DNA of 64,000 bases. Source: Alitta virens. Taxonomy: Eukaryota > Annelida > Polychaeta > Phyllodocida > Nereididae. A program made the position numbers and the translations under genes. Positions within the stretch are counted from its first letter, which is position 1, and every line of letters begins with the position of its first letter. Of this stretch, positions 5,595 to 58,162 are shown one piece after another. Location of the stretch: assembly GCA_932294295.1 (NCBI GenBank), contig OW028581.1, positions 10,933,526 through 10,997,525 on the forward strand, read 5' to 3'. The notes beneath the pieces were generated by a model. The model was not told the DNA's origin. It did no database searches and saw only the letters and a program-made list of their open reading frames with translations.

Positions 5595-5641
5595 ATTCTG
5601 TTAATTAGGACTCGTAGAAAAAAAATCAAAAAGGAAAAAAA

Positions 5642-21371: not shown

Positions 21372-21580
21372 ATGGTTGTGGACATCAAAAAACGTCTGTT
21401 GACGATGCTGGAAGATGCCTTCCTGACTGACGTCCTCTTCGTCGTACAAGGCACAGAGATCAAGTGTCACAAACTGATCCTCAGTTCGTGCGAAAATCGT
21501 CTGAAGCAACTTGTGGCGAACAATCCTGATAAGGTTGATATTGATGATGTCGCTCCGCACACTTTTCAAGCAATCTTGAA
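21372..21580 (+). CDS. BTB-BACK protein: BTB exon
   Basis: The ATG lies ten bases after a good acceptor (ATTTTCTTGCAG|AACATTCAAG), so an upstream 5' UTR exon exists. The exon encodes the BTB/POZ core: LTDVLFVVQGTEIKCHKLIL, with the conserved Asp before the first strand and the conserved His, then a DIDDVAPHTFQAIL segment leading into the next exon. It ends at GAA|GTGAGT in phase 2. BTB domains dimerise and, in proteins that also carry BACK, typically bind the CUL3 ubiquitin ligase. The family match (BTBD1/2/3/6-like) is by motif reading. It joins the exon at 22066 in frame. Confidence 0.88.
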
Positions 21581-22065
21581 GTGAGTATCAGTAATGGTGA
21601 ATTATTGGTGATGATGATCATATGATAATGCAGGTACATTGAAGATGAAATCGCACAATTATTGGAACTTTGCTGGTAATTATGGCAGGAAAATCAGACA
21701 AATCATCTTTGTTTACCCGATTAATGATTTATTTTAAAATATTAGCTCGATGATATCTCTACTAGTTTTCAAGATGTGGCCTTCTAAAATTTGGGCATTT
21801 TCGATTACTTAATATATTTTATGAGATGACCTAATGTGCCTGCCGAAGAAATTATCGCCTCTTAACTTAGCTAAAGTAATAAAAGGCCTTACCTGCAATA
21901 AGCTGTGATCAAGAAATATAGACTGTGACCCTGTGGGGATAATACAACTTGTGCTTGGAAAACTTACTTTGGAAAGATTTAAGTTTAGAAACTGAATGAA
22001 GAGGCTAAATTCATTAAAGATCATTTACTGATAAAACTCAACACATCATGTTTATTTTTATCCAG

Positions 22066-22606
22066 ATATTTGTATGCTGATGATTGCATTGTCACTGATG
22101 CGAACGTCTTTGAATTGATGCACGCCGCCAAGAAGTTCGCCCTGGATGACCTTGAACACTCCTGCTCGGAATTCATTTTGAAGAAACTGACGGAAGTGAA
22201 TGTGAGCTTTTTCACCAGCCAATCTCTTCAGTTTAATGCGAAAGACAGTCTCAAAGTGTGCCTGGATTATTTCAGGACTAACAGCCTGAAAGTCCTGTCG
22301 ACAAGCGGGTTTCTGCAAATTCCACGAGAAGTACTGGTCACTTTCTGCGAAAACAAGGGTGCTGATTGTACGGAATCAAAATTCTTCTCTGCCTGCTTTG
22401 AATGGGCCAAGGCTGAGTGTGAGAGGCAGAACCTGGAGCAAGTGCACAAGAATTTTCGAACTGTCTTAGGTGAAGACTTGCTTGACCTCATCGAGTTCCA
22501 GCGAATGTACCTAAAAGAATTTCTGAACATTGTAGTTCCTATGAAGGTGTTAACTCATGAGGAGATAGGACGCCATGTTGAGGAATTTCAAACACGTCAG
22601 ATTAAG
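22066..22606 (+). CDS. BTB-BACK protein: end of BTB and BACK domain
   Basis: The exon starts at TATCCAG|ATATTTG, completes a Lys codon and adds 180 codons. It gives YLYADD (end of BTB), then LMHAAKKFALDDLEHSCSEF (start of BACK), then the BACK core with FFSACFEWAKAECERQNL and VLGEDLLDLIEFQRMYLKEF, and ends ...EEFQTRQIK|GTAATG in phase 0. The FEWAKAEC and LTHEEI positions match BTBD1/2/3/6, in which a PHR domain would follow. No PHR-coding sequence is present downstream in the window. BTB plus BACK total 250 residues. The next candidate exon is 9.4 kb away. Confidence 0.88.
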
Positions 22607-23289
22607 GTAATGGTACTTCTATTTTGCACCTCGTGTAGATTGCAAGTTTTAGTGTGTGGCTTGCGATGGTACCATAAATTGGCCTTACTCTGAACAGCTA
22701 AATTGGGCTTACCATAGTCTTAACAGGGTGCCCATGGTATTGAGAAAAGTAGGGAATCTGAAAAAGCGATTTTCATGGTCTGGAAAAGTAAGGAATTTTA
22801 TTTTGTAGTCTGGAAAATTATGTCTGTTTAAAAATGACATTAGTGAATGACACGCTTATACAAAGTAAGTCAAACGTAAACAAAATGCACTCTGGATCAT
22901 ATCAGAAATTAATTGTTGACATATTTAGCATTGATCCTTTTGACAGGAGTTTCATTAAAATCCATCTTGTAAATAAAAAGTTATGGACGCTTGTGTGACA
23001 TTAAGCAGTAAAAATCTGTTTTTTTTTTGTCTGGAAAAAGTCTTGAAATAGTAGGGAATTCTTTTTGGTGGAAGATGTGGGGTACCCATAGAACATATTG
23101 TAGAAGAGTTAGAAAATTCCAGGGAAACTTTTTTCTGGCATGTTCATAATGATTATTACATTCTACCTAATTTTCTTTTGGTTAAGAAAAAAAGTCTTAC
23201 AGCAATCACTTGTTTGGATTAACAGACTGTTGACCATTTGTCATCTCAATATCAATTTATTTGAAAAGCCAATTTTTACCTGAAGCGGT

Positions 23290-23425
23290 GATTCAATGGT
23301 TGAATGCTTCAATGCTACTGGCTAGTAGAACTGGGTTTGAAGCTTAGTCAGCTTATGTGACCAGCTGCCAGAGGTAGATGTAATGATGAGATGAAGGAGT
23401 TCACGCCATGTTATATGGGTGGTTT
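23290..23425 (-). mobile_element. SINE 3' fragment
   Basis: On the minus strand, CATCTCATCATTACATCTAC, GGCAGCTGGTCACATAAG and CAAACCCAG match the tail of the SINE at 10003. Confidence 0.55.
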
Positions 23426-25116
23426 TTTTTTACCTGTATCAGCTTAGCCACCGAGAACTATGTTCTGCTTTGAAACTAGGCTAAAAGCATATAAATGACA
23501 GATAGTCAGCAAAATTGTTCAATTTAAGCCTAGTTTATGGTACTGGCTTACAGCAATTTGGTTCCAAGTTGTGCACAGCAGTCACTTATTATATAACTGA
23601 GCTTTTTCGAAAGTGCCCACTAATTAGCAATTTTTTAACTGCAAACTGTTTAAGTGATGTATATATGATTTGTTACTTCGGTGAGGTAAGTCTTCGCTTC
23701 TTGTCTCTGCGTTGGATGTCAGATCACAAATCGCCAGCATTTCTACACACACTAACTAAAAATGCAAGGTTGTCGTACTTGTGGATGCAGTAACAAACTT
23801 GTGTTTGAGGTGAGTGGAGTTAGTTCTACATGCTTGTCTGAAAACGGAAGGACATCATACCGAAGTATTGCCAGCTTCCGGATACGGGATCATCTTGTCG
23901 GACAGGAACTCAAACATGAAACGCCTCTCATGATGCACTGCACTCTGCATCGCTGATGGATGAGATCACACTCAGAAAGATATTGCAGGGTTGTCTGAAG
24001 AGAAATTGGTGCTACTAGGTCAGACCATACTGGAATCCATCTTGCCATGGACCTAAGGAGATTGTGGACTGTGTTCTTTACAGCAGTGCTCATCTGATAA
24101 GCATGGGCCATCATGTTAGGTAAGTAGACAGATGAAACCATCTGGATGAAGGACATCGCCGGCTCAACTGAAAGATATCTACTACCTGGTTGCAGTAGCG
24201 GTTACGGGAGGACATGGGTTCAACCATTCTCACAACCCTGCATTTACCACAAGAAACCATCAGCACCAAATGTATTAGCACGCACGCAGTTGAAGGATGA
24301 GATGAGAAATTCTTTCCAAGTGACTTGATCCTTGTGAAAATGTGGCAATTAGTAGCCTTAATGCTCAGAAGTCACTGCTATATGCTGACAACTGCTTAAT
24401 TGTGAATCAGGACTATCCTGTAAGTTGAAAACATTATCAGATAAGTATGGTGTCGTCAAGTATTGATATTTGAAAAGGTCTCATGATTACTTTAGATAAC
24501 CACCAATTAGTCATAAAACTCGTAACCCGCTCCGTCATGAGGTCCTCATGCTGGGATCTTTGTCTAATGACGTCCTCCTGTGGTGCATTGAATGAGGTGA
24601 TCAAGCTTAGCTGGGTCTGGTTAAAACATCCACTGAGTTGCACATGCGATGTGTACTTCCATAACTTTGTTTTTAATTTGTGGGCATGGTAACGCCCAAG
24701 AATTATTCCAATCTCTTCAGTGGGCATCAGTGGGAGTCAGTGGGAGTCAGTGGGCGTCAGCCTTAAGCCATAGGGCAAAATCAATTGATGTTGTGGGGCA
24801 GTTTGCAGGCACTGCAGCAAATTTCAAAACACCAATAGCAGTCTGAGGAGATTACAAGCAGGTGACATGGAGTGTAATTGACTAGAATGGGGCTGAAGGG
24901 CAGCAAATTAGAATTGGGCTTGGCTGGAGCTGGCATACGTGAAATAATGCCTGCACCAGCACTGTGAGCGGGTTAAAATGCATCATTTCAAGCGGGACAT
25001 AATGCCCAAACTACCAACAACTTGCACAAATAAGTCCCTGTTATCTGGGCATGCAATAATAAGCAAAGTTCGGGCTTGTCCGCTTTGGCCATCGATTGTG
25101 CTTCCTGCTTGGCTGA

Positions 25117-33274: not shown

Positions 33275-33718
33275 GTGACCATCAAAGACCATAATGGAAT
33301 ACAAACCACCATCAGCCGACCTCTACAAAACACTGTTAATGCTTTGAAAAGAAAAAAGATTTGGAATGGAGGACAGCAAAGTCATCCTGCAGATAAATTC
33401 ACACTGAGTCACAAAGGGAAGACGCTACAAGATGACATGTCTCTGGCTGAAATAATCTCTCCTTCAGAGGATCTGCGTCTGGAGATAGAGACATTTGATG
33501 TTATTTTAGAACATGTGCGGACCAGTGAAAGAAAGCCGTGCACCTTGAAAGTGAAGGAATTAGATAATGTGACCAATGTTATTCATAGATTCATACGTAC
33601 GATTAAAAATGTGCCTCGATTGTATTTATATGCTGATAAGAATGAGAGCACTCGTGTTACATCACTGGACAAAAGTGCACTCATGCCTGACTCTGTCATT
33701 TACTACTATGCCAACTAA
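33275..33718 (+). CDS. Ubiquitin-like terminal exon, copy A (intact)
   Basis: This exon of 147 codons plus stop follows the acceptor GGTTTCAG|GTGACC in phase 0. Residues 1-72 look like a ubiquitin fold: VTIKDHNG (strand 1), TTISRP (strand 2), then FTLSHKGKTLQDDMSLAEII and LRLEIE. These parallel the ubiquitin stretch from strand 3 to strand 5 (LIFAGKQLEDGRTLSDYNI ... LHLVL). Residues 86-147 form a second beta-rich segment, from CTLKVKEL to DSVIYYYAN, that may be another degenerate beta-grasp. There is no C-terminal Gly-Gly, so it is unlikely to be conjugated. Spliced from exons 1-3, it yields a 430-residue BTB-BACK-UBL protein. The GTG at its start is the splice junction, not a start codon. 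Confidence 0.75.
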   Translation: MTIKDHNGIQTTISRPLQNTVNALKRKKIWNGGQQSHPADKFTLSHKGKTLQDDMSLAEIISPSEDLRLEIETFDVILEHVRTSERKPCTLKVKELDNVTNVIHRFIRTIKNVPRLYLYADKNESTRVTSLDKSALMPDSVIYYYAN

Positions 33719-34191
33719 TAACATGTGATAGAGCAAGTTGTATATCGTATATTGACTGGTTGTATGTCAATTTATTTCGTACACAGCATGTAGAAAATAC
33801 AAGTTTTGATTGTAGTTGAACACCAGCCATGAAACTCAAATAGGATTGTGTTTAATGCACCTTCCTGGCTTTATGAATTGTTAATATTGGTTTTTTCAAT
33901 TGTGTTATATATGCATCACTGAACAGTCCTTTATGCAATAATTTTAACACATTCAGTGAGGCATTTGTGGATTGTTATATCTTAAGGGTAAAATAGGCTT
34001 ATTATACAAAGATATTACCATTATATGCACTACACACCAGCTGGATTTCATTATTCATAATATATTACCTAAGTTATGTCATATATGGTAGAAAAAAGTT
34101 TGAAAATGATGCAGTAAATCTCTTCATGTAATGATTGTGCATCACATATTCATCTTATGGTACATATAAAGAGAGAAATTACTTATTTGAG

Positions 34192-34482
34192 GTACACTTC
34201 ATGGACCGCAAACGATTGCGAATGACTGTGACACAACCTGCGTATACCACTATTTACAGTTGGAAAATAGAATGGGGTGGACTACAGATATATTCACTCT
34301 TGAGTCACAAGGACAAGACGTTACAGGATGACAAGACTCTGGCTGATATATTTCTTCCTTCTGAGGATGTGCATCTGGAAATTGATTCATTTGATGTTGA
34401 TTTGGTAAATGTGATGAACCACAGGGAAAGAAAGACATGTACCTTGAAAGTTAAGGAAATGGGTAATCATATGAATTTGTGA
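34192..34482 (+). pseudogene. Ubiquitin-like exon, copy B (truncated)
   Basis: This copy is related to copy A. Its acceptor reads TTTGAG|GTACAC instead of TTTCAG. The first ubiquitin-like segment is shortened (SLLSHKDKTLQDDKTLADIF is kept) and the frame stops at 34480, before the C-terminal tail. The remains of that tail are readable in another frame at 34536-34620 (SSVIYYHAKN). It could still make a one-domain product, but loss of the tail and the weak acceptor favour a decaying exon. Its block-duplicate partner is at 49659. Confidence 0.6.
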
Positions 34483-35382
34483 TGGGATTGGTAAAAAGTA
34501 TTATGAATATGTAATTTGTGTGGATCAGCAGAGACAGGAATGCAGCCAGAAACGTTCGCTTTCCTTCCCTTGAGACTGGAGAACTGAGACCTAGTTCTGT
34601 CATTTATTACCATGCCAAGAACATGTGCATGGATGTACTTCTTATAACTTTCATGTTGGTACAGAAAGTTTATCTTGATGGTTGTGAGACGCTTTATGGT
34701 TTTGTATTTTCATCCATTATGTGTACAGTTCTTTTTAGTGTTTAACGTTTTATATCCAGCACATTTCTATGGGTGATTATAACTTATACAACTAATCACC
34801 AGTATACCATATCACAATATTATATTAACGCAATAGAAAATACTATTTACAACACAGTAGCTTACAGTATCTCTCATGCATCTGACTTTGTTTCATTTAC
34901 TAACATGGATGATCCTTCTTATTGGTGATATCCAACTAAGCAATTGCAAATTTTATATTTCTTTTGCCAAAAATTCATTATGTACTTTGTTTGTTTTAAT
35001 TAATCTCAAGTAATCTATCTATCTAATATCCATCTTTCTATCTCTGTATGGCTATTTCAAAGTTGTCATGGTCAACTGTAAAAAATAACATAGACTGCGC
35101 TGCAGCAATACCTTTAGCAAAAGCACATACTGCTCACAAGGAATATTATGATTGGTCAAGATACCCTCTATGGTGTCATTTGCATCTTCATGATTGAATT
35201 CACAATCTGATCTCTTTTCAGGTTTGCTGCAATTGTCAAACAGCATATTATGAACAAAAATAAGAAATTGAGCAATGCCCATTTTTCTGCTAAACGCAAT
35301 CGATATAGTGGAAAATAAATTGTTTGAAATACATGTCTCAATAATTGGTTCCTGGGGTATTAGAATAAGATATTCTTTTGAG

Positions 35383-37214
35383 TTTTTGAGTTTGTTTATT
35401 TGCACCAAACAAAGTGAATACATTTTGCAAATTATAGTCAACATAGTAACAATATAGAACATATCAGATTGGTGCAAGGGATACACCCGAGTATCATATA
35501 CTATCGCCCGATAGGGTGGGTGCTCCCTTTTATAAAAATTTAATCAAAATGAAAAATAGTTAATAATTATGTATGTAACATAGAAGCAAAGACAGAAAAG
35601 AAGAAGAAATACAATTCAATACAGCAAAAATAATTATCGAACATTTGACATTCATATCAATCAATTTCAATATAAGTAAATATATGTCACACCAATTATT
35701 TCAATACATGAACATACTTTAGTAGGAACTTAAACAAGAATGTGTGTAAGTTTTAGAAAACAGTTTTTTAGTTTTAGCTGATTTTAGAGTATTTGATAAA
35801 TGTAACCAAAGATGAGGTGCTCTACCCAAAAAACTTTTATTATATATTTCTAAACTATGAACAGGTGTTAGCAGTGAGTTTCTATTGCGAGTAATTCGAT
35901 CATGTGTTTGTATCTCATATAAATTAGTAATACGAAGTGGGAGATAATCATTTACATATCTATATGAAATATTTAAAAGTGACAAATTCATCAAGTCTTC
36001 AAAATTCAATAGTCTGGCCTTTTTTAAAAATGGTTTCACAGATGTTCTTCTATTGAGATTAAAAATGGCTCTAATTGCATGGTTTTGCTTTACTTTTACT
36101 TTATTTCGATTACTTGAAGTTAACATAGATCCCCAAACACACACGGCATAATTCAAATGACTCTGTATATTTGCTAAATATATTATACGCTTTAAATAAA
36201 AAGGAACAATATTTTTTACCATATTTAAACTGAATTCCTGCAGTCAGTTTAGATAACATATGTTTAACATGGCTGTTCCAGTCAAGATTTTCATCAATAA
36301 CTACCCCCCAAAAATTTTGTATCTCTAACATTCCTTATTTCTTTGCCCCCAATCTCAATCTTGTTGTTACAATTTATTTTCTTACTTTTCATTCTGAACA
36401 AGATATAATTAGACTTTTCTACATTAAGGGATAAGGAATTACTTACGAACCATAAATTTAATCTTTTAAGATCTTTATTTACTTTTTTAAATAGGAATTT
36501 AATATTTCTACCTGATGCAAAAACTGTTGTGTCATCTGCAAATGATACACAGGAACAAAATTTTAAACATTTGATCAAATCATTTGCAAGGACAATATAC
36601 AATAAAGGGCCTAATACAGAGCCCTGTGGAATACCAAAATCAACTGTGTACTGATCTGAAAGGGTATTTTTAAATTTTACTTGCAGTTTCCTATTACTTA
36701 AATAACTTTTTAACCAATTGAAAACTGTACCTCTAATGCCATAATTCTGTAATTTATCAAAAGCCTTAGTCATATCTAAAAATATTCCTATTGTAAACAT
36801 TCCCTTATTAAAACTATGTAATATGTTACCAGTTAAATCCATAATAGCATCTGTTGTATTTCTTTGTCTCCTAAACCCATATTGCCCCTCGTATAGAAAT
36901 TTATGCTTTGTGAAAAATGTTACTAATCTAATGCTAACTAATTTTTCTAAAATTTTTGAAATTATTGGTAGTAGTGATATTGGCCTGTTATTACAAATTT
37001 CATGAATGTCTTTTGTTTTATATAGTGGTCTAATAATAGCTAATTTCATACTATTTGGAAATTCACCAGATATTAAAGACTTATTAAATATAATCCACAA
37101 TGCTTTAAGAATACTGGGATATATACCTTTAAGAATATTATTTGATACATTGTCATACCCTTTACTGTTTTTAGATTTTAAATTCTTAATTATCTTTTCT
37201 ATTTCATTCTGATA
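35383..37214 (-). mobile_element. 5'-truncated CR1/L2-like LINE
   Basis: Minus-strand reverse-transcriptase sequence with NRPISLLPIISKILEKL, GIPQGSVLGPLLY and the FADDT catalytic motif. It is split by a frameshift near 36.25 kb and shows an internal loss after KAFD. The 3' end at 35383 carries short CTCAAAAA-type tail repeats, as is typical of CR1-like elements. It is inserted in the spacer 5' of copy C: the flanks (...ATTCTTTTGA and TAGGTTGCTAA...) are contiguous upstream of copy A. It is dead. Confidence 0.85.
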
Positions 37215-37297
37215 GCTTAGGTTGCTAAAGGTATTAATATAAGAACTTTTTCAGGTTGATTTAGAAGAAGCATAACATCAGAAGTTACTGGTTTCAG

Positions 37298-37759
37298 GTG
37301 ACCATCAAGGACCATAATGGTCAACAAACCACCATCAGCCGACCTCTAAAAACCACTGTTTACACTTTGAAAACAGAAAAGATATGGAATGGAGGGCAGC
37401 GAAGTCATCTTGCAGATAAATTCACTCTGAGTCACAAGGACAAGACATTACATGATGACATTACTCTTGCTGATATATTCTCTCCTTTGGATGATCTGCG
37501 TCTGGAGATAGAGACATTTGATGTTATTTTAGAAAATGGGATGAACAGTGAAAGAAAGACATGCACCTTGAAAGTGAAGGAGTTAGATAATGTGACCAAT
37601 GTCATTCACAGATTCATACCTAGTGTTACTAACCTGACCTACATATTTATTAATACTGATAAGAATGCAGCCCTGAGGAGGTACACAGCAATACCAAACA
37701 GAAGTGCATTTATGCCTGACTTGGTTGTTTACTACTATGCCACCAACGATATTTGGTGA
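37298..37759 (+). CDS. Ubiquitin-like terminal exon, copy C (intact)
   Basis: This exon of 153 codons plus stop follows GGTTTCAG|GTGACC in phase 0. It has the same plan as copy A: VTIKDHNGQQTTISRP, then FTLSHKDKTLHDDITLADIF and LRLEIE, then CTLKVKEL and a tail ending DLVVYYYATNDIW. The C-terminal tail (INTDKNAALRRYTAIPNRSA) differs from copy A and is nearly identical to copy J. Many of the differences from J that I could read in the first half are at third codon positions, consistent with protein-level constraint. No Gly-Gly end. Confidence 0.75.
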   Translation: MTIKDHNGQQTTISRPLKTTVYTLKTEKIWNGGQRSHLADKFTLSHKDKTLHDDITLADIFSPLDDLRLEIETFDVILENGMNSERKTCTLKVKELDNVTNVIHRFIPSVTNLTYIFINTDKNAALRRYTAIPNRSAFMPDLVVYYYATNDIW

Positions 37760-37863
37760 ACTCTAAATACAGTAATTAAAATGTATCTTTATTGGGTTTG
37801 TTGTAGTATTTACTGTGATGAGTGAAATTTTTAACCTTCATTTACACTATGTTTATATATATA

Positions 37864-39166: not shown

Positions 39167-39278
39167 TAGATTGTTTGTAATTATGAGACCAGAAAAGGTA
39201 TAACATCCCCTTTGACATTCATATGATGTAGGGTACTCAATATCGTTTACAGTTATTCATATGGATTGAATCTGTCAG

Positions 39279-39645
39279 AATCTGTGTTTATTTATGTGAG
39301 AGATGCCAATGGCAAGATTGTCACACTTAGCTGGAAAACATCTGGAATGGGGGAAGCAAATGGTATGCTGCAGATTTCTTCACTCTGTGTCATGAACACC
39401 AGACACTAAATAATGAACTTATTTATATCTGCACTCCAGGGAAAGATCTGCTACTGCAGGTTGACTCAATTGGTGTCATTCTTCAAAATTGTGCTAATTA
39501 TACACAGAAAACCTGTAACTTGAAAATGAAAGAGTTAAATAATGGACGTGTACTTGTCAGGGCATATACAGTGCCTTGCAAAAGTATTGGCACTCCTTGG
39601 ATTTGGCAAGCAAATATGTCTACGACAATTATGCACAGGACATGA
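39279..39645 (+). pseudogene. Ubiquitin-like exon, copy D (frameshifted)
   Basis: A diverged copy. VFIYVRDANGKIVTLS covers strands 1-2. A 7-base loss relative to copy C just before TGGAATGG then shifts the frame. In the original frame the body still reads as ubiquitin-like (ADFFTLCHEHQTLNNEL, then DLLLQVDSIGV). The C-terminal part is replaced from 39566 on by sequence resembling a Tc1-type terminus. It is the partner of copy K at 51039. Confidence 0.6.
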
Positions 39646-39914
39646 ATGGCACAAGCAATTAGCACAATTATTTCAGATGTGATAATTTACAGAGGGTAGT
39701 AAAGTTTAAAGGTGATTTGCAGCATATAAAATCGACTTCATGATATTTTGATGTAGTGAATATTTTTATGGTTTTCACCAGATAACCTCTGAATTTGCTG
39801 AAATGAACCCCTGTGAAATATCAAGCAGCTAATGGTTATCGAGACTTTTAGTGTACAATAAATTGGGGAAAATGCATTAATATTTAAATCTTATTTTTAT
39901 AAATGACTAAGTAT

Positions 39915-41507: not shown

Positions 41508-42399
41508 AAAGTTCTTGCAATGCCAGTACTTCTAAAAGGCACTGTATCTATGCTACTGACAGGATATTTTCTTAAAACGTGAGGGTTACATCCAACAGGA
41601 AAAGTCTCTCTTTCAGTAACTGTTCTGTGCCATCTCTCAACGACTTTATACTTGGCTCTGTCATTTCCTAAAAGGAGATGCCATGACTGAAAATGCAGCT
41701 TATCTATTACAGATAACTTGTTATTAATCCACTTTTTCGCTGATAATATATTGAAAAAGTTATCTGAATAAACTAAAACATGCTTGTAAACAAGCATTGT
41801 TTGTTAACCTAGTAATTTGACCATGCCTTGATGGCTTAATGAAGTACTGAATGATGTAATGGCTGATGGATTTCCAGTGCAGGAAATGTTAACCTGCAGT
41901 TTGTGTTCTGATTTAGTGTTGCATGTTATTGTAAATGACATTTACGCGAGGCAATTAAGGAGCTAGGTACTTCCTGTTCAGGATACAATAATGTGCTTGG
42001 TTTAGTCTCAAGTGATTTTCTTGATTTGATACGGAAATATTTTCTAATTTTTGGTAACTGAGATATGCTTTCAATACGAAATATGAATCAGATGAAAAGT
42101 CTTCTTTGTAATTTTATACTTCCAATTGATTCATAATCGAAATGGTGAACATAGATACTTTGAGAAGGTTTATAGAGCCCTAAATGTATATGTCTTCAGT
42201 AATATATAACATAGAATTTATTTATTGACATTTTTATATTGTGGTTGCCTTTGTGTAACTTATACACCTATGAATATTTGTTTTTGCATGTCTATCATCA
42301 AAGCATTTTAAGCATGTTCTTAGAACGTGTCATATGAATGGTTCCCAATACCAACACAGGATAACCTGATGCTGATATGGAAAACATCGGTAATTTCAG

Positions 42400-42852
42400 G
42401 TTAATGTCACTGGTAATTGGGGAATACAAGCCACTGTCATTCGGCCTTGTTGCACCACACTTCACAGTTTCAAAGATGAAAAGATTTGGGATGAAAGGCA
42501 GGAAAGTTATCCTGCTGATAAATTCACACTGAGTCAAAACGGGAAGACACCACAAGATGACATGACTCTGGCTGATATATTCTCCCCTTTGGAAGATCTG
42601 TATTTAGAAATTGAGAAGTTTGACGTAGTTCTTGAAAATGTGAAAACTAAGGAAAGAAAAGCATGTACCTTGAAAGTGAAGGAAGTACCAAATAGTGGGA
42701 GAGAAGTTAAACAGATGCTAATGCCGTTCATGGATGGCTATTCAGTGGGGATGACTACTGATAAGAAAGCAACTGAAACTAAAAAGTCATGGCCATATCC
42801 AGACTCTAGTGCCATCTTCCCTGACTCTGTTGTGTACTACCAAATAAAATAG
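42400..42852 (+). CDS. Ubiquitin-like terminal exon, copy E (intact, divergent)
   Basis: This exon of 150 codons plus stop has the acceptor TAATTTCAG|GTTAATG in phase 0. An ORF search starting at ATG sees only its second half, but the frame is open from 42400. It starts VNVTGNWGIQATVIRP, with two cysteines after it, then FTLSQNGKTPQDDMTLADIF, LYLEIEKFDVVL, CTLKVKEV, and a tail ending DSVVYYQIK that differs from all other copies. It is the most divergent intact copy and has no partner in the second block, where the corresponding site (55.75-55.9 kb) lacks it. Confidence 0.72.
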   Translation, partial: VNVTGNWGIQATVIRPCCTTLHSFKDEKIWDERQESYPADKFTLSQNGKTPQDDMTLADIFSPLEDLYLEIEKFDVVLENVKTKERKACTLKVKEVPNSGREVKQMLMPFMDGYSVGMTTDKKATETKKSWPYPDSSAIFPDSVVYYQIK

Positions 42853-44345: not shown

Positions 44346-44609
44346 TTGGACTGGTCTATTACTAATTGTATGCACGAATCCGCGAATGACATTGGTCACA
44401 TTATCTAATTCCTTCACTTTTAAGGTGCATGTCTTTCTCTCACTGTTCATCTCATTTTCTAAAATAACATCCAGACACAGATGCTCCAAAGGAGAGAATA
44501 TATTAGCTAGAGTCAAATCATTATGTAGTGTCTTGTCCTTGTGACTCAGTGTGAATTTATCAGCAGGAAAACTTTGCTGTCCTCCATTCCAAATCTTTTC
44601 AGTTTTTGT
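44340..44609 (-). pseudogene. Ubiquitin-like exon, copy F (inverted fragment)
   Basis: Read on the minus strand, an open frame of 89 codons covers KTEKIWNGGQQ through FTLSHKDKTLHNDLTLANIF, with a 15-base in-frame deletion before DVILEN, and ends shortly after CTLKVKELDNV. The first 25 codons, the acceptor and the tail are missing. The flank at 44612 onward is plus-strand 3' sequence like that following copy A (33.77 kb), so only the exon piece is inverted. Confidence 0.65.
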
Positions 44610-45551
44610 ATAGGTCAGGTTATTTCGTACACGTCAAGTACAAAATACAAAGTTTGATTGTAGTTGAACACCAGCCATGAAATTCAAATAGGATTGTGTT
44701 TGATACACCTCCTTAGCTTTCTTAATATTGGTTTTTCAAATGTGTTATATATGCATCACTGAAGAGTCCTTTGTGTATTAAATGTAACACATTCAGTAAG
44801 GATTTATGGATTGTTGTATCTTAAGGGGTAAAATAGGCTTACTATAGAAAGATATTATCATTATATGCACTGTGCACCAGCTGAATTTCATATATTTTCG
44901 AAAGTATAAGTTTAATTTATTTCCAAAATAGTCCTGGTAATAAAGATATTTCAACCCAGATATTTCAATGTGAAAATATTCATTGATGACTACTTTGGGG
45001 TAGATGCCAAAAAATATATTGAAAAGTTGTGTCATATATTGTAGAAAAAAGTTCACATAAATACAGTCTTAATCCTGTAGAAATGCACCACTTATACAGA
45101 TAGATTATATATATATAATAAATAATGAAATATAGCGAGAAATATGAATTGTATGGTATATGGGTCATTATCGGAATTAACTTTTATCCAATTACAAGAT
45201 TTATTCAGTTTGATCATGGGTGCAATTGACTGCTTAAGGGTAATAAAGATGGCCATCTGGCAAATGTAGGTAGCCACTGTTGGCAGATTATGGGTGGTAA
45301 TTCAACAGAGGAGTGAAAGAATGAAAATACAGCCCAGCCGAATCATTTACAGCAGGTGACCATGCTATACAGGAGGCTGCTAAGGCAGGATTGACTACAG
45401 ACAGTGTAGATACATGATCAACGCAGTTTTGGTGCATAATGTACCTACTACATTGTATGATGTTGTCAAGTAGTTGTGAAATAGGTGCTTGTTGCAGTAT
45501 GTTTATCAAAATTTGCGGCACAATGATAAAACCAGGAATTACTGATTTCAG

Positions 45552-45998
45552 GTGACCATCAAAGATCATAATGGACAACAGACCACCATCAGCCGACCTC
45601 CCCTTACCACTATTTACAGTTTGAAAACGGAAAAGATTTGGAATGGAGGGCAGCAGATATTTCCTGCTGATAAATTCACTCTGAGTCACAAGGACAAGAC
45701 ACTACATAATGACATGACCCTGGCTGATATATTCTCTCCTTTGGAGGATCTGTTTCTGGAGATAGAGACATTTGATATTATATTACAAAATTTAAGAAAC
45801 AGCGAAAGAAAGACACGCACCTTGAAAGTGAAGGAGTTGGATAATGTGGAAAATTTCATTTGTGGATGCATACGTACTATTAGTAATATGCAAAAATCAT
45901 ATTTATATGCTGACAGATATAAAAATAATTATGCATCATTGAAGAGAAGTGCACTCATGCCTGACACTGTCATTTACTACGAGGCTAGCCACTACTGA
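45552..45998 (+). CDS. Ubiquitin-like terminal exon, copy G (intact)
   Basis: This exon of 148 codons plus stop has the acceptor TGATTTCAG|GTGACC in phase 0. It reads VTIKDHNGQQTTISRP, FTLSHKDKTLHNDMTLADIF, LFLEIETFDIIL, TLKVKEL, and a tail SALMPDTVIYYEASHY close to copy A. AATAAA lies 164 bases past the stop and is kept in the duplicate copy L. No Gly-Gly end. Intact reading frame, acceptor and poly(A) signal together make it a good candidate for a used terminal exon. Confidence 0.75.
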   Translation: MTIKDHNGQQTTISRPPLTTIYSLKTEKIWNGGQQIFPADKFTLSHKDKTLHNDMTLADIFSPLEDLFLEIETFDIILQNLRNSERKTRTLKVKELDNVENFICGCIRTISNMQKSYLYADRYKNNYASLKRSALMPDTVIYYEASHY

Positions 45999-48680: not shown

Positions 48681-48699
48681 CAATCCACCATTGGGCAAA

Positions 48700-48960: not shown

Positions 48961-49658
48961 TTGCAGTCCTGAATGTTGACCCTACCACCATAATGATAAA
49001 CAGTAAGTAACACTGTTCTTGATGATGAAAGATTACCATGATTCTGTTTATGTTGCAAAATATTGTGTTGTTAGCAATTAGTTGGCAGAATATTGTTAAA
49101 TACTGATTCAGTATAATCAGGGAACAGGCATTATCCATATAACATACTTAATGCATTCTCCTCAAAGCATTTGAATAAAAGACCGCAGAGCACAATGTGA
49201 GAATTTTTCTTTTTTTGGACTGATTAACAAAACTTACAAATGGCTTATTTCATAATTTGCGTGCTTGCCAACTCACATACTAAAATGGTACAGCCGCTGT
49301 ATGTCCAGGGAGCATCCGGTCTGGCCAATTTTAACATTTCCGTTTCACACTGATTGTATTACTGCATATTAATGTCAATTTGATGAGGCAGATGAAGCTG
49401 ATTTTCAAGACATGATGGAGTTCATAGCTCTTGGATATAATTTATAACTACTATTATAATTAATGAAATATGTTGAATTGTGTTGCATTTATACAGTGAC
49501 AAGCAATGTTTTCAGAGGCATCATTTTGTGGGTTTGCTCATTAAAGTTGCTTTTGAGTTTCAAACTTTGAAATTGATGCATTAAATCTCTTCATGTAATG
49601 ATAGTGCATCACATATTCATCTTATGGTACATATAAAGAGAGAAATTACTGATTTGAG

Positions 49659-49949
49659 GTACACTTAATGGACCACAAACGATTGTGAATGACTGTGACA
49701 CAACCTGCGTATACCACTATTTACAGTTGGAAAATAGAATGGGGTGGACTACAGATATATTCACTCTTGAGTCAAAAGTGCAAGATGTTACACGATGACA
49801 TGACTGTGGCTGATTTATTTCTTCCTTCTGAGGATGTGCATCTGGAAATTGATTCATTTGATGTTGATTTAGTAAATGTGATGAACCACAGGGAAAGAAA
49901 GACATGTACCTTGAAAGTTAAGGAAATGGGTAATCATATGAATTTGTGA
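49659..49949 (+). pseudogene. Ubiquitin-like exon, copy I (stop codon)
   Basis: Block-duplicate of copy B. The altered acceptor TTTGAG is shared, and a TGA falls at about codon 10. The remaining frame from MTVTQPAYTT keeps DDMTVADLF. Tail remains continue to about 50073, where homology breaks. Non-functional. Confidence 0.7.
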
Positions 49950-50266
49950 TGGGATTAAAAAAAGTATTATGAATATGTAATTTGTGTGGATCAGCAGAGA
50001 CAGGAATGCTGCCAGAAACGTTCGCTTTCCTTCCCTTGAGACTGGAGAACTGAGACCTAGTTCTGTCATTTATTGTTCTGATTGTCAACTGAATATTCTG
50101 CCACTGTTTTAAGAACAACATAAACCTTTTAATAAACTTCAATATTTTGATTAACTTACGTTTTATGCCATTATTATACTGTATACATTTATTTCCTCAC
50201 CTTAATGACTGCAAAATATATGGGGCATTTTAGAAGAAGGATGAAATCAGAAATTACTGATTTCAG

Positions 50267-50728
50267 GTGACCATCAAAGACCATAATGGACAACAAACCA
50301 CTATCAGCCAACCTCGAGAAACCACTGTTTATGCTTTGAAAGCAGAAAAAATATGGAATGGAGGACAGCAAAGTTATCCTGCTGATAAATTCACACTGAG
50401 TCACAAAGGGAAGACACCACAAGATGACATGACTCTGGCTGATATAATCTCTCCTTTAGAGGATCTGTGTCTGGAGATAGAGACATTTGATGTTATTTTA
50501 GAAAATGGGATGAACAGTAGTGAGAGAATGACTTGCACCTTGAAAGTGAAGGAGTTAGATAATGTGACCAATGTCATTCGCAGATTCATACATAGTGTTA
50601 CTAACATGACTTATGTGTTTATTAATACTGATAAGAATGCAGCCCTGAGGAGGTGCACAGCAATACCAAACAGAAGTGCATTTATGCCTGATTTGGTTGT
50701 TTACTACTATGCCACCAACGGATATTAA
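50267..50728 (+). CDS. Ubiquitin-like terminal exon, copy J (intact)
   Basis: This exon of 153 codons plus stop has the acceptor TGATTTCAG|GTGACC in phase 0. It is the second-block partner of copy C: the C-terminal tail is nearly identical (INTDKNAALRRCTAIPNRSA, end DLVVYYYATNGY), while the ubiquitin-like half shows several changes (SQPRETT; GKTPQDDMTLADIISPLEDL). That half resembles copies A and E in places, which hints at exchange between copies. Frame and acceptor are intact. Confidence 0.75.
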   Translation: MTIKDHNGQQTTISQPRETTVYALKAEKIWNGGQQSYPADKFTLSHKGKTPQDDMTLADIISPLEDLCLEIETFDVILENGMNSSERMTCTLKVKELDNVTNVIRRFIHSVTNMTYVFINTDKNAALRRCTAIPNRSAFMPDLVVYYYATNGY

Positions 50729-51038
50729 AATTCTAATTACAGTACTTAAAATGTATCTTTATTGGGTTAGATGTAATTGTTACTGTGTATTTTTAGTGAA
50801 TTTTTAACCTTCATTTACGCTATGTTTATTTCAGTAATGATTTAAAGCATTACATAGGTTTTTGTATTTTCATGTGTAAAGTAACATAAATGCTTCAATG
50901 AAAAAAAAAAAATTATCACCTAAAGTTGGATGTATGTAGATTGTTTGTAATTATGAAACCAGAAAAGGTATAACATCCCCTATAACATTCATATTGATAT
51001 AGGGTACACAAACTCTCGTTTACAGTTATTCATATGGA

Positions 51039-51416
51039 ATGAATCTGTCAGAATCTGTGTTTATTTATGTGAGAGATGCCAATGGCAAGATTGTCACACT
51101 TAGCTTGAAAAAATCTGGAATGGGGGAAGCAAATGGTATGCTGCAGATTTCTCTGTGTCATGAACACCAGACACTAAATAATGAACTTATTTATATCTGC
51201 ATTCTAGGGAAAGATCTGCTACTGCAGGTTGACTCAATTGGTGTCATTCTTCAAAATTGTGCTAATTATACACAGAAAACCAGTAACTTGAAAGTTGAAG
51301 AGTTAAATAATGGACATGCATTTGTCAGGACATATACAGTGCCTTGCAAAAGTATTGGCACTCCTTGGATTTTGCAAGCAAATATGTCTACGACAATTAT
51401 GCACACAGGCATATAA
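51039..51416 (+). CDS. Ubiquitin-like exon, copy K (compensated frameshift)
   Basis: Partner of copy D. The frame is open for 125 codons from an ATG at 51039: VFIYVRDANGKIVTLS, then about 12 out-of-frame-derived residues, then LCHEHQTLNNEL and DLLLQVDSIGVILQN. It shares D's 7-base loss, but a further 5-base loss brings the frame back. The C-terminus derives from a Tc1-type terminus, and a MITE sits immediately after the last codons. The usual GTGACC acceptor is absent; CTGTCAG|AATCTG would be phase 1. Whether it is expressed is open: either a tolerated variant or a pseudogene with chance restoration. Confidence 0.4.
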   Translation: MNLSESVFIYVRDANGKIVTLSLKKSGMGEANGMLQISLCHEHQTLNNELIYICILGKDLLLQVDSIGVILQNCANYTQKTSNLKVEELNNGHAFVRTYTVPCKSIGTPWILQANMSTTIMHTGI

Positions 51417-51927
51417 AAACCCAGTCGATTTTTGCCCCTTAACAGACGCTGTAGACGTCTAGTGGCTCCTATATTAGGCAAGAATAGACGTCTGTTACGT
51501 TATGAATTTCTGTTCTTACAGACTGGCAAAATCCAGGCTTCTAGACATCTAGAGTTACCACTTTCCCCATTCTTACAGACCATTAATTGAAATATTAGGG
51601 TAGTCTGTAGTTTACATATTTCTAGATTTACAGACCATCTGCATTTATTCAAAATTCCAGCATGCAGACGTCTAAATTTGCATGTATTATTGTTATAGAC
51701 CTTTTATAGATGTCTGTATCTATATCGGATTAAGGTCACTTTTCAGTATGCTACTGATGGTCTGTAAAAGCTGGTTTTGGACTACATACAGACTTCTGTG
51801 ATTGTATCCTGACTGTTTGGAAGTCCATGTCTGTACATGTGCAGACGTCTAAAATTGGGAAAATCAGCTTGTGACAGACGTCTACTGCGTCTGGAAGGAT
51901 GTATTTTTGGGTATGGTTTTTAGCTGA
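51410..51927. mobile_element. MITE with repeated AGACGTCT palindromes
   Basis: About 518 bp inserted in copy K relative to copy D, flanked by CACAGG on both sides. The two ends carry inverted CAGACGC(T/A)GTAGACGTCT. The palindrome AGACGTCT or a near match recurs about eight times. No ORF. Confidence 0.7.
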
Positions 51928-52239
51928 CACAGGACATGAATGGCACAAGCAATCAACCAAAATATTTCAGATGTGATAATTTACAGTGGGTAATTAAGTT
52001 GAAAGCTGATTTACAGCTGTTATGTAATGTCACATAACTGGTGCACATACAAAATCGACTTCATGATATTTTGATATAGTGAATATTTTTATGGTTTTCA
52101 CCAGATAACCTCTGAATTTGCTGAAATGAACCCCTGTGAAATATCAAGCAGCTAATAGTTAGCAAGACTTTTAGTGTACAATAAATTGGGAAAAATGTAT
52201 TAATATTTAAATCTTATTTTCATAAATCACTCAGTATTG

Positions 52240-54530
52240 CATGTTTGTTTGTTTGTTTGTTTGCTTGTATGTTTATTAACCAGATAAAGCATATATGCTT
52301 ATCGAGCTGGTACAAATAAAGATAGAGAATATATAACAATACATTGTGATATTGAGATAATAATTACATGTATAAAATGGTAATGAAACAGATTTGAATA
52401 AAGTAATTTTGCATACTATAAAATGGTAGTTGAAAGCAAAAATTTTGATAATTTGGAATAATATCTGGAAATATTTTAAAAATTACAATTGTTGATACCT
52501 TATGTATATAAGATAAATCGTTATTGTTTTACTACATGCCTTTAAGGAAACTTTCTCTACCTCAAAATGTGACAGCAGCTGTGAAATAATTTCTTTCCAT
52601 ATGCATGCTCCCTGACATTTTGTCATTTTTTTGCCTTCTGTTCTTACTCTGGGCAATTTTCATTTCATTCTATTTCTTGTATTTGCATAATTGGTATCTG
52701 CTAATTCTTGGAAATAGTTTGCATATATGTGCAGTAATATTTTCATTTTATGTTGGTACACTATTTTGGCCATGTTTAAGGCATAATGATCTTTGATAGT
52801 AATACTTGTTATGTAATGATGTTGAGGAAGTTAGTGGATCAAGATTAAAAAGGCCTTTGCAAAATTTCAATCCTTTTTAGGTGTCTTTTGGCAGCTGTAC
52901 CATGAATTTCATTTCCATAGCTAATCTTTGAATGAAAATAAGCATGGTACAGTTGCATTTTCCCTTTGTTTGTGACCTTATTATTTATGATTTTGAATGC
53001 TCTGATGAATTTAAACTAGTCATTTGCATATTTGAGAAAGATATGAGTGTTGTGCTAAAAAATTCATAAAATGAGTGTTTTTTGCAACATTTTCGTGGTA
53101 TTTCGCCGTTTTTGTGGCTCTTGGCCTTGTATGCAACCCACCTCAGGGCCCTGGGTGGCGAATTTAAAAACTAGGTTCAAGCGGCAAAAATGGCGGGATC
53201 CCAACTTTTCAGACCTGTCCAGAAATGCAATTACTAGTGACTTGTATAAATGTTTTAATTGCACTTGAGCTTTGTTGAGAGCATGCCACTGTAGGTGTGC
53301 CAAGGGTGAATGTAATTCATAATGTAATTAAGCTGAGGATGTTGCACTCATTCACACATTGCATTGAGTGATTAACTCTTAGTCATTGTTATAATTAACA
53401 TATAGCCCCATTTGGTAGTACTCTAGCACTAACACTCTACCAATCCACTACATGTACAATATCAGCACCTTCTGGATTCAGCACCGTAAGGCTCTAGTTC
53501 CTTAGTTTTATTTCTTTTAAAATATCAGGAATATTTTTCATTTCACAAAACACCGCGTAGTGTGTTTTTGCTGTCATTTACAATTAAACCATTTGCCTGG
53601 AACCACATTGTTAGGTTCTCTAAAGATTGTTCTGCTTCTTGTTTCAGTTTTTGTGGGTCATTTCCTGATAAAAAGATACTTGTGTCATTCAGTTGCATTT
53701 TTTAGGTCATTAAAACGAACTAGAAAGAGAAGTGGGCCTAAAATAGAACCATTTTAACAGTTTTTGGATTCTGATGTTTCATTTTTTATGTTAACTTTCT
53801 GTTGCCTATTAGTAAAATATGATTTTATCAATTCAATGGCGGGTCCTCTTACGCCATATTTTTCTAGTTTTGTAAGTTTGTGTTTTATGAGGTTAAATGC
53901 CTTTGTTAAGTCTAGGAATATTCCAATTGTCATTTCTTTATTATCTATTGATTGGCGAATGGTGTCTATTACTTTAACCAATGCCAATGATGAAATCTAA
54001 ACTGACAGTTATAAAGATTTTTTTGCTTCTCCAAGAAATTTTACACTCTATTGTAAATAACTTTTTCTATTACTTTGTTTATGCCACTTAATAAAGTAAT
54101 AGTTCTATAATTATTTGGATCATCAGTATTGTTTCCTTAGTGAATTGGAATTACCTTGCCTGTTTTAGGGGATCTGGATATTTCCCTGTTTTTAATATCT
54201 GGTTGCATAGGAGAACCAAAGGCATTAGGCTATAACAGTGCTGAAGAATTTTATTTGAGATTCCATCGATTCCCGGTGCTTTTTTTAATTTTTTTGAAAT
54301 AAGAAATTATTCTTTGTATTTCTTCTTGATTTGTAGGGTATATGTACATACTGCTTTTGCATGATGTCTTTAAATAATTTTGAAATTTTATTGTCCTACA
54401 ATATGGAGTTTTTAATTTCCTACATTTATAAAATGATCACAGTGCATTAGCAATTTCTTGGTCACCAGTAAATACTTTTCCTTTGTGTGTTATTTTGTTT
54501 ATTTCTTTCTTGGCTTTTTTCTTTTTAGGA
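52240..54530 (-). mobile_element. Degenerate LINE with RT remnant (block 2)
   Basis: At 53754-53987 (minus) MTIGIFLDLTKAF and KYGVRGPAIELIKSYFTNRQ identify a non-LTR reverse transcriptase. It is interrupted at about 53.04-53.50 kb by an unrelated insertion. The 3' part matches 39915-40965. Confidence 0.65.
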
Positions 54531-56249
54531 TTAATAACTGGTCTCAGAATTATATTGGTAAATGATTAGTCATTGAGTAATCAGAAATTAAAGTTTCAAA
54601 TGGACAGCCAAAAGTCACTATCCACATGTGAGAAGTGTAAAATATAGCATTTCCTGACTATCAGGACCAGATGTAAAGTTGCGTCAATCTGAAAAGTGCC
54701 AATAATATGAATGAAATTTCTCCAAAACAATGACTTCATAACTGGCTCTGTCATTTCCTGCTGTATGAAAAAAAATTTATATCTGAACAAAAATAATGCT
54801 TGGATCAACAATAACTATGAGGCTGTACAACAAATTATAGGCATATACTCAGGTTGCCTGATTAATGGGATTTAGCATGCATATTATTTCATAATGTTAT
54901 ATAATGATTTCATTGCCTGTATCTTTGGTCGATACTCAAAACTATTCCTCTGAAACATTTTTTGATGGTTACATGTGCCGTTTACATCCTGTGTAGAATT
55001 AAAATTGGCATATTTTGCAAATTTCTTGCGGTGCCAGTACTTCTAAAAGGCACTGTATCTATGCTACTGACAGAATATTTCTTTAAAACGTGAGGGTTAC
55101 ATCCAACAGGAAAAGTCTCTCTTTCAGTAACTTCTGTGCCATCTCTCAATGACTTCATACCTGGCTCTGTCATTTCCTAAAAGGAGATGCCATGACTGAA
55201 AATGCAGCTTATCTATTACAGATAACTTGTTATTAATCCACTTTTTCGCTGATAATATATTGAAAAAGTTATCTGAATAAAATAAAACATGCTTGTAAAC
55301 AAGCCTTGTGTTTGTTAACCTAATAATTGACCATGCCTTGATGGCTTACTGAGGTAATTAATGATGTAAAGGCTGATTGATTTCCAGTGCAGGAAATGTT
55401 AACCTGCAGTTTGTGTTCTGATTAAGTGTTTCATGTTATTGTAAATGACATTTACGCAAGGCAATTAAGGAGCTAGGTTTAGTCTCAAGTGATTTTCTTG
55501 ATTTGATACGGAAATATTTTCTAATTTTTGGTAACTGAGATATGCTTTTCAATACGAAATATGAATCAGATGAAAAGTCTTCTTAGTAATTTTATACTTC
55601 CAATTGATTCATAATCGAAATGGTGAACATAGATACTTTGAGGAGGTTTATAGAGCCCTAAATGTATATGTCTTCAGTCATATATAACATAGAATTTATT
55701 TATAGACATTTTTATATTGTGGTTGCCTTTGTGTAACTTATACACCTGTGAATAAAGCCATAAAGCTTATTTCTGATAGCTTTCAAAATTTTCATGTTCA
55801 GGTCAAATGGTTTTTGACAATGTAATGCAACATACAATTGAACTATATATCATATATATACAGCTATATTTTTTAAGTTATGGATGGAACATGGGACTCC
55901 CGAAAACTTTTGTCTTAATGATTCAGCGGTTTTGCTTCAGGCAGTAATATATTTGTATTATAAGAGCTTTAAATGTATCCTGGAATAAAGGGAAAACGTG
56001 TTGCATGATTACTTAAACTTACAAAGAGTTTTCTATTTTCTTTGTAAATAATTAATAAAACACAATAGTTTTTTTGTGAAAAACAAGCATATAAAATGGG
56101 ATTTTATGGTTTCATGTGACTAATTGTAAAATGACATGGTAAACAAATACAAATTGGAAAAGAAGACTTTGTAAGACATGTGTAAGTAAAAACATGAATT
56201 CTGCTACATAAAGTGAACAAATGGCAGTTAAATAATACCTAAAACTACT

Positions 56250-57195
56250 AGAGTCTTTGACATAGTACACAGTCACAAGAAATGCAGGATACCCTGAAGG
56301 AGAGCCAAAAGTAGTGTAAAGTTACCACTGGAATCCCACATGAAACAATCATCATGCTGCAAGAGTCACTTGAAGGGCATAGCACCTGGCATGGCCGGAG
56401 TGCTGGCCAAAGGATGGTAGATCTGAGTGCTTTGGCTGGAAGTAGCACCTGGCATGGACGGAGTTCGCACAGAATAGCGATTCCATTTTGTTTGTGAACA
56501 ACACCTGGGATGCCCAGTGCATTGTTATGGAGGTGGTGCACCTAGCATGGCTGGTGTGCACATGTTTCAGTTCATTTTGAGAGGAGTGTGTGTTATATTT
56601 TGTAGGGTCAAGGACTATTGCTTGTATCACAGGTTTGAGGGTTGCGCTGAAGGTGTTGCAGTCGATTGGCAATCGCTGGTCGTTTGTGAATGTCAAACCA
56701 CTGTGCATTCCTTAGACGTTGATGGATGTTGGCAGAGTACGCATAGGGCAGCAGGAAACTTCTGTTTCCTGTTGGAGTACGAGAGTTGTTGTGTTGCGCT
56801 GGCTATGTATGAGGAGAAATGGAAATGGTCAGCTGTTGAAGAAATAGTAATCAGATTAAAGGTCAACATGAGTTCTTTGTTGGTAACTTGCACCAGCTCC
56901 CCTGCCCTTAGGCAACCATGATATGTGAAGGCAAATATGGTGGCCCAGAGTTTCTGATCATAGTGGTGATGAATGATTGAGGGAAGGATACCAATAAGTT
57001 GTCTCAGTATAGATATTTTGATGGGTAAAAGCTGCCTAAATGGGCTGGTCAAGCTTTTGTTCGTGAGACCTTGTAGGGTTTTTGTCACAATGAAAGATGC
57101 GGTAGTCTCATGGTGTTGGTGCATCTTGTGGACAAAGGAGATGGACGATATATAGGTGGTAATAGATTTGTGGGATAGCCCCTTCTTGTGCAAAT
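56250..57195 (-). mobile_element. Tyrosine-recombinase fragment (DIRS/Ngaro- or Crypton-like)
   Basis: On the minus strand, KGLSHKSITTYISSISFVHK (core-binding region), then FAFTYHGCLRAGELVQVT with the first catalytic Arg. In a second frame, LPIDCNTFSATLKPVIQ and a YNTHSSQ stretch stand where the His-x-x-Arg box should be. A stop and a frameshift separate the two, the second Arg is lost, and no reverse transcriptase is linked. It is a dead fragment. Confidence 0.6.
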
Positions 57196-57360
57196 GTGTA
57201 ATGAATACTAAGTTACCTACTTATGCTGTGATTTTGTTGACAAGCAAACATTTGAACAGGTCAACTTGTCTCAATACTATAGTGGGGTATAGCCCAATGT
57301 CAAAATTGTCTCCACTAAACTGCTGAAGGAGTAACCAGTGAATTCACCTTATTGTGAAAA

Positions 57361-57457
57361 CCATCCTGTCTGTCTATCTGTCTGTCTAGCTGTCTAGCTG
57401 TCTGACTGTCTATCTGTCTGACTGTCTGACTGTCTGACTGTCTGCCTGCCTGCCTTT
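57361..57457. repeat. (CTGT)n / (CTGA)n microsatellite
   Basis: About 95 bases of imperfect CTGTCTGACTGTCTAT units just upstream of copy L. Confidence 0.9.
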
Positions 57458-57567
57458 TTTTGCATGATGTGCCTGATTTTGTCAGGTAATTGTGAAATTG
57501 GTGCTTGTTGCAGTATTTTTATCAATATTTGCTGCACAATGATAACACCAGGAATAACTGATTTCAG

Positions 57568-57999
57568 GTGACCATCAAAGATCATAATGGACAACAAACC
57601 ACCATCAGTCGACCTCAACATACCACTGTTTACGCTTTGAAAACAGAAAATGTTTGGAATGGAGGACAGCAATGTTATCCTGCTGATAAATTCACACTGA
57701 GTCAAAATGGGAATACGCTACGAGATGACATGTCTCTGGTTGATATAATCTCTCCTTTGGAGGATCTGTGTCTGAAGATAGAGACATTTGATGTTATTTT
57801 AGAAAATGGGATGTGCAAGAAGTACATGCACCTTGAAAGTGAAGGAGTTAGATAATGTGGAAAATGTCATTCGTGGATTCATATGTACCAGTAATATGTT
57901 CAGTTTACATTTATATGCTGATAAAAATCAAACTTGCATCATTGAACAGAAGTGCACTCATGCCTGACTCTGTCATTTACTACTATGCAATCTACTAAC
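57568..57999 (+). pseudogene. Ubiquitin-like exon, copy L (two frameshifts)
   Basis: Block-duplicate of copy G. The acceptor (TGATTTCAG|GTGACC) and first 80 codons are good (VTIKDHNGQQTTISRP; FTLSQNGNTLRDDMSLVDII). A length change after ENGM shifts the frame and gives an early stop at 57853. The tail is still recognisable in other frames, with a second shift near 57930. AATAAA is kept at 58163. A truncated one-domain product is conceivable. Confidence 0.65.
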
Positions 58000-58162
58000 A
58001 GGTTTTTTTCAAGCACCAGAGTGCTTTTTACGACTTTCAAATCAGGACAAGTCATATCTTGAATTGACAGATTGTGATGTCAAACTGTGTCATTGTAATT
58101 TTCATCTCGATATATTAAAGCTCTATAACTTGTCTGAATAGTCGCCATTATGTTTATAAGCA

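Follow-up and report, generated by a model that had tools for sequence, protein, structure and literature searches.

A BTB-BACK stem and its array of ubiquitin-like exons

We analyzed a stretch of 64,000 nucleotides from the ragworm Alitta virens (GenBank assembly GCA_932294295.1, contig OW028581.1, here C9, positions 10933526-10997525, hereafter the window), in which a gene stem encoding a BTB and a BACK domain is followed by an array of exons encoding ubiquitin-like (Ubl) domains. Coding exon 1 (21372..21580, plus strand) carries the start codon and the N-terminal part of the BTB domain, ends at a GTGAGT donor and has its counterpart in the paralogues described below; the exon probably starts at 21362, directly after TTGCAG. 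Coding exon 2 (22066..22606, plus strand) encodes the remaining BTB part and the BACK domain and ends at a phase-0 donor, AAG/GTAATG (the slash marks the splice junction), in the same phase as the donors of the paralogues. Because both exons together comprise 750 nt (250 residues), the stem ends in phase 0. In a Pfam scan, the BTB domain (PF00651) scored 73.5 bits against a cut-off of 20.5 and the BACK domain (PF07707) 31.2 bits against 20.9, so that BTB and BACK exons ending in phase 0, as proposed in an earlier sequence-only reading of this DNA, were recovered. Among solved structures, the top sequence match of the 250-residue stem was KBTBD2 (1.6e-12, residues 4-189). Two further proposals of that reading did not hold. 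An alternative stem end at 32134 was unsupported, its partner (59881-60122) being disrupted by indels, and the comparison with BTBD1/2/3/6 fails since the Pfam scan of the protein joined to exon 33275 contained no PHR domain behind BACK.

The array was surveyed over the window plus 20 kb past its end, and copies beyond the window keep counting in window coordinates (64230 corresponds to C9:10997755). A total of 20 Ubl-like stretches were found over approximately 50 kb, 19 on the strand of the stem and one as an inverted fragment, and 11 of them are intact. A tblastn search of the array's 84 kb detected no further BTB or BACK exons except for two BTB matches with E values of 0.06 and 0.16. Past the array, at C9:11029133-11029486, a disrupted BACK match with one stop lies on the opposite strand.

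Five intact terminal exons lie on the plus strand of the window: 33275..33718 (147 aa in tandem Ubl domains, stop TAA), 37298..37759 (153 aa, TGA), 42400..42852 (150 aa), 45552..45998 (148 aa, TGA) and 50267..50728 (153 aa, TAA). The acceptor is TTTCAG/GTGACC in four of them and TTTCAG/GTTAATG in 42400, the most diverged of the intact copies in the window. Six more intact exons follow on the same strand at C9:10997755, 11003437, 11006634, 11008882, 11010700 and 11013279 (64230, 69912, 73109, 75357, 77175 and 79754 in window coordinates), the last with a diverged tail. All 11 intact exons have frames of 143-153 codons, a stop of their own and a TTTCAG abutting a phase-0 start. The remaining plus-strand stretches of the window are a decayed copy at 34192..34616 (TTTGAG at the acceptor position, premature stop), a diverged copy with a frameshift at 39272..39690, a fragment covering exon residues 106-145 at 41546..41665, a decayed copy at 49659..50073 (TTTGAG, stop nine codons in), a diverged copy at 51045..51413 (120-123 aa open, a near-duplicate of 39272) and a frameshifted copy at 57568..57995. 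The inverted fragment (44352..44630, minus strand) lacks both the exon start and the acceptor. The five acceptors and the separate stops listed by the sequence-only reading were exact, and a fifth TTTCAG/GTGACC precedes the frameshifted 57568. Its count of about twelve related exons also agrees with the 12 stretches of the window, whereas their placement on one strand holds for 11 of them; its end of the array at 58000 was wrong, as the array extends to C9:11016230.

A second locus on the same contig (C9:5347001-5373000) has a closely related stem, with identities of 97% for the BTB exon and 92% for the BACK exon, and six Ubl copies. Two of these copies are inverted, and one inverted copy retains TTTCAG and a 150-codon open frame. 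Among 19 copy starts inspected, three lack the CAG (34192, 49659 and 14702 of the second locus), and all three also lack a frame; 57568 and 82487 have retained the acceptor in a broken copy. Pairwise comparison of the 11 intact exons (55 pairs) gave a mean ungapped identity of 0.28-0.31 farther upstream than position -20, 0.35 from -20 to -10, 0.84 over the final 10 intron bases and about 0.6 at the exon start. Within the final 30 coding bases it falls to 0.37, and from 3 nt beyond the coding end it is 0.28-0.32; as ungapped identity is lowered by indels, these values understate homology in the flanks. With BLAST, a few close pairs are alike beyond the exon (45552/64230 from -600 to +54, 69912/73109 from -94 to +42), and 27 pairs align across the acceptor, with homology starting at most 45 bases from it in 24. 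The in-phase TTTCAG in 11 of 11 exons and the peak of identity at the acceptor and exon show that the array pattern is not due to chance.

The product of the Ubl exon was predicted to form two beta-grasp domains in tandem (predicted local distance difference test score 91), with the fold of the ubiquitin superfamily. The top Foldseek matches were ISG15 and linear diubiquitin, and FAT10 and OASL were also in the list, in agreement with the ubiquitin-like nature that had been assigned to these ends. A scan with PF00240 (cut-off 25.4 bits) took in 11 array stretches and left out 64230 and 79754: 75357 scored 26.2 bits, eight others (33275, 37298, 45552, 50267, 57568, 69912, 73109 and 77175) scored 13.0-22.8 bits, and 42400 and 51054 had no match to this model, while two proteins from single-exon paralogues scored 20.2 and 25.0 bits. 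The likeness to ISG15, FAT10 and OASL lies in the paired beta-grasp domains; the template modelling score is only about 0.4 over both domains, and therefore the placement of the domains differs. Unlike the conjugated modifiers ISG15 and FAT10, which are marked by a C-terminal Gly-Gly, the ragworm ends show this motif in none of the 11 intact exons, and their predicted position is behind BTB-BACK.

BTB-BACK-Ubl loci across the genome

The whole assembly (671,116,069 bases in 23 contigs) was searched for related genes. The BACK exon search returned 56 exons of at least 100 bits including the query, 37 of them on C4. Outside C9, two queries detected 49 distinct Ubl stretches, and when these were paired with the 65 best of 150 BACK matches, 44 followed a same-strand BACK exon at distances of 299-6039 bp (median 1426). 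For none of these 44 was the nearest BACK exon on either side on the opposite strand, and for 43 it lay upstream; the other five stretches had no BACK exon within 12 kb. The 44 paired stretches correspond to 41 BACK loci, of which 38 have a single Ubl exon and three have two. Conversely, a Ubl match follows within 12 kb of 39 of the 54 BACK exons that score 100 bits or more outside C9. A BTB exon was present upstream in 26 of 30 BACK loci inspected with 1.5 kb flanks, and the usual layout of a paralogue is three coding exons (BTB, BACK and a single Ubl exon). Of the 15 of these 30 loci with a Ubl match in reach, 11 were modelled; all 11 have a phase-0 BACK donor (GTNCAG/GT in ten and GTGGAG/GT in one) and a phase-0 AG/GT Ubl acceptor. 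Therefore, given 44 of 49 Ubl stretches behind a same-strand BACK exon and an identical splice phase in all 11 models, BTB-BACK-Ubl is a real gene family with 41 further loci, some of them broken.

A tree of 27 Ubl exons separates a group of the 13 from other chromosomes (100/100) from a group of the 14 on C9, in which the three exons of the second C9 locus fall among those of the window locus. BTB-BACK-Ubl loci are densely clustered at C4:32.5-45.7 Mb. The assembly paper (PMC10352625), which also lists the RNA-Seq run ERR10123675, mentions in an excerpt an uncertain order within a chromosome 4 repeat region, which may or may not be this cluster. At C6:29.7-29.9 Mb and C10:19.3-20.3 Mb there are BACK paralogues of 106-128 bits, mostly without a nearby Ubl match. 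Three Ubl stretches on C13 (8973047, 9043134 and 18077471), the first two with stops, have no nearby BACK exon among the matches used.

Selection and block exchange among the Ubl exons

The 11 array exons are under weak purifying selection: a one-ratio codon model gave an omega of 0.52, and an omega of 1 was worse by a 2dlnL of 50.8. The best omega on a grid was 0.35 for the first half of the exon and 0.55 for the second half. In nine single-exon genes (36 pairs, Nei-Gojobori), the BACK exon had an omega of 0.14 and the Ubl exon one of 0.59, and therefore the Ubl end is the variable part of the protein. Model M2a was favored over M1a (2dlnL 7.1) and picked out three sites, all in the second Ubl domain; recombination may be the source of this signal.

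Blocks corresponding to Ubl halves have been exchanged between copies. The exons 45552 and 64230 are nearly alike in the first half (4 of 216 sites differ) but not in the second (50 of 213), and the switch coincides with the border between the two Ubl domains (Ubl1 and Ubl2). The second-locus exons 20163 and m5813 show the reverse pattern, with 35 differences over 216 sites of the first half against a single one over 147 sites of the second; a faster second half does not account for the pattern in that pair. Furthermore, the regions 34095-42276 and 49562-55754 are duplicates that mostly differ by 1-8% per 100 columns; mismatches between exons 37298 and 50267, which lie inside them, reach 16%, an excess that exchange with other copies would produce. 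Two metagenome open reading frames (ORFs), P0003 and P0005, combine Ubl1 and Ubl2 halves from different copies (50267, 57568 and C9:10997755), which reflects either exchange or assembly chimeras.

One stem, proposed alternative ends

At an ordinary locus of this family, one di-Ubl terminal exon lies 0.3-6 kb behind BACK. At the window locus of this expanded family, tandem duplication of the terminal exon behind a single stem has given the 20 stretches and 11 intact exons described above. We propose that the stem donor is most likely spliced in cis to one intact acceptor per transcript; we assign this explanation a probability of about 0.7. The locus has the arrangement expected of alternative 3' exons, with 11 in-phase acceptors and separate stops behind one 5' part. 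Since no methionine occurs before residue 55 in nine of the 11 array exons and each has its own stop, they are most readily understood as terminal exons joined to an upstream part, and the family loci identify this part as BTB-BACK. The products would share a constant BTB-BACK half and differ in their di-Ubl halves. The BTB-BACK region of KLHL proteins is a dimerising, partner-docking unit. In the ragworm protein, this half would likewise dimerise and dock a partner, perhaps CUL3, and the fast-evolving di-Ubl half might select the binding target, by analogy with MATH-BTB adaptors. The computations show the family and the structure of its genes, the predicted fold of the ends, purifying selection, the conservation of the acceptors and block exchange between copies; the alternative splicing, the partner and the function are inferred. 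Thus, of the earlier idea of one stem with alternative Ubl ends, the association of the Ubl exons with BTB-BACK is supported by the structure of the paralogues, the phase-0 junctions and the conserved coding exons and acceptors of the array, whereas splicing to several ends is still a proposal.

A number of observations weigh against this explanation. In the array, nine of the 20 stretches are decayed, diverged or fragmentary, and the pyrimidine tract of the acceptors is poorer than in the single genes. An AATAAA or ATTAAA hexamer occurs within 500 nt after the stop in nine of the 11 exons, which is near the background of about two thirds expected (2.2 per kb in the window), and exons 33275 and 50267 have no such hexamer within 1200 nt of the stop. 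Two exons have an early in-frame methionine (73109 at residue 7 and 79754 at residue 12). Identity to exon 75357 falls to 37% among the array exons, and therefore they may not all share one function. An omega of 0.52 represents weak constraint, and its estimate is biased by exchange between copies. In the wider family, at least five of the 41 loci have a stop within the BACK or Ubl match, 15 of the 54 BACK exons (eight on C6, four on C4 and three on C10) lack a downstream Ubl match within 12 kb, and two further BACK paralogues share a single Ubl exon with a third; therefore, some members of the wider family have a different kind of end, or one too diverged for the two queries. Use of any distal exon is predicted from genomic sequence.

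The stem holds a further observation of this kind. The usual CUL3-binding marks of BTB proteins are the phi-x-E motif and the 3-box, as given in parts of PMC13061254 and PMC3616122, and many KCTD proteins are described in the former as binding CUL3 despite the absence of these motifs. When the BTB domain of the window gene was aligned with KBTBD2, a gap of five residues was found at the phi-x-E site, and the corresponding stretch, LVANNPDK, contains no Glu. The window gene was therefore not counted as a CUL3 substrate receptor, and the role of its products as E3 adaptors is still a suggestion, although the protein may, like those KCTD proteins, work as such a receptor. In the C4 paralogues, a stretch LLE could act as the motif, its alignment being ambiguous.

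The decayed copies (34192, 39272, 49659, 51045 and 57568), the single Ubl exon at 38 of 41 other loci and the setting of the array in segmental duplications with transposon insertions would also suit an ordinary BTB-BACK-di-Ubl gene with just one terminal exon in use, the other copies being decaying by-products of tandem duplication. We consider this unlikely, as 11 copies have kept in-phase acceptors and frames of 143-153 codons while most of their flanks have diverged beyond alignment, the chance of an open frame per copy at a distance of 0.1 was 0.18 without indels and 0.01 with indels in a rough neutral simulation, and the codon model rejects an omega of 1.

Considerably less probable is a set of independent genes, in which each distal copy would have its own promoter and short 5' exons and encode a free ISG15-like di-Ubl protein. 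Loci of the mod(mdg4) type have 3' parts that form independent primary transcripts according to an excerpt of PMC4667647, two of the six second-locus copies are on the opposite strand, two array exons have an early in-frame methionine, and no BACK exon lies within 12 kb of five of the 49 Ubl stretches found outside C9. However, the late first methionine in nine of 11 exons, the lack of a Gly-Gly ending in all 11 and the position of 44 of 49 stretches behind a BACK exon speak against free proteins, no search aimed at small 5' exons between the copies having been made. Joining of stem and ends in trans, with copies on either strand being usable, appears the most improbable of these explanations. 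It is favored by the inverted second-locus exon with its TTTCAG and 150-codon frame, and by mod(mdg4), which does so in flies and moths (PMC4667647, in the same excerpt); but all intact copies of the window are on the stem strand, the only copy inverted there is fragmentary, all 44 paired stretches outside C9 share the strand of their BACK exon, and splicing in cis suffices.

Beyond cis-splicing of the stem to one end per transcript, we can only speculate that the locus serves germline diversification, which we regard as rather doubtful: a stem with a large di-Ubl array, whose halves are shuffled between copies by block exchange at the Ubl1/Ubl2 border, might give individuals that differ in their set of ends, with variable, fast-evolving Ubl halves recognising foreign or fast-changing proteins, such as ubiquitin-binding effectors, and presenting these to the constant BTB-BACK half.

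A BTB stem with alternative 3' ends has a precedent in mod(mdg4), for which part of PMC4667647 gives at least 31 isoforms, most of them ending in a FLYWCH zinc finger, and joining in trans. The ragworm locus resembles mod(mdg4) and lola of insects in a common BTB 5' part with many 3' ends of a shared domain type, here predicted from the gene, and differs from mod(mdg4) in that the stem also contains BACK and the ends are tandem Ubl domains instead of FLYWCH. With the BTB-BACK-Kelch (KLHL/KBTBD) adaptors of CUL3 it shares BTB and BACK, whereas tandem Ubl domains replace the Kelch repeats and the window gene has no phi-x-E. The nematode MATH-BTB and F-box adaptors are described, in an excerpt of PMC4334554 that cites Thomas 2006, as fast-changing families in which the half facing the cullin is conserved and the other diversifies; MATH stands there in place of the ragworm's BACK and Ubl, and positive selection, termed strong in the same excerpt, is only hinted at in the ragworm (2dlnL 7.1). 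The combination of BTB-BACK with tandem Ubl domains was not found among the papers listed from an open-licence library, within which it is new, and may be in print elsewhere; in this single annelid genome it makes up 41 further loci. If the array is spliced as proposed, the principle of mod(mdg4) and lola would extend to another protein class with Ubl ends, and the use of variable Ubl modules for recognition in annelids would become testable.

Several other elements were observed in the window. A reverse transcriptase ORF (RVT_1, 5e-25) lies between two Ubl copies at 36294-37250 on the minus strand, and a Tc3-like transposase piece (HTH_Tnp_Tc3_2, 3e-7, slightly under the cut-off) lies within the array at 38266-38598. 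The ORF at 56693-57220 (minus strand) resembles what we take to be a tyrosine recombinase and has no Pfam match. Upstream of the stem, a 788-codon ORF at 14614-16980 (minus strand) has a hydrophobic start followed by acidic low-complexity sequence, with no Pfam match. Finally, two palindromic elements at 2906-3095 and 5439-5595, each approximately 80% self-complementary and 88% alike mutually, are probably a small transposon.

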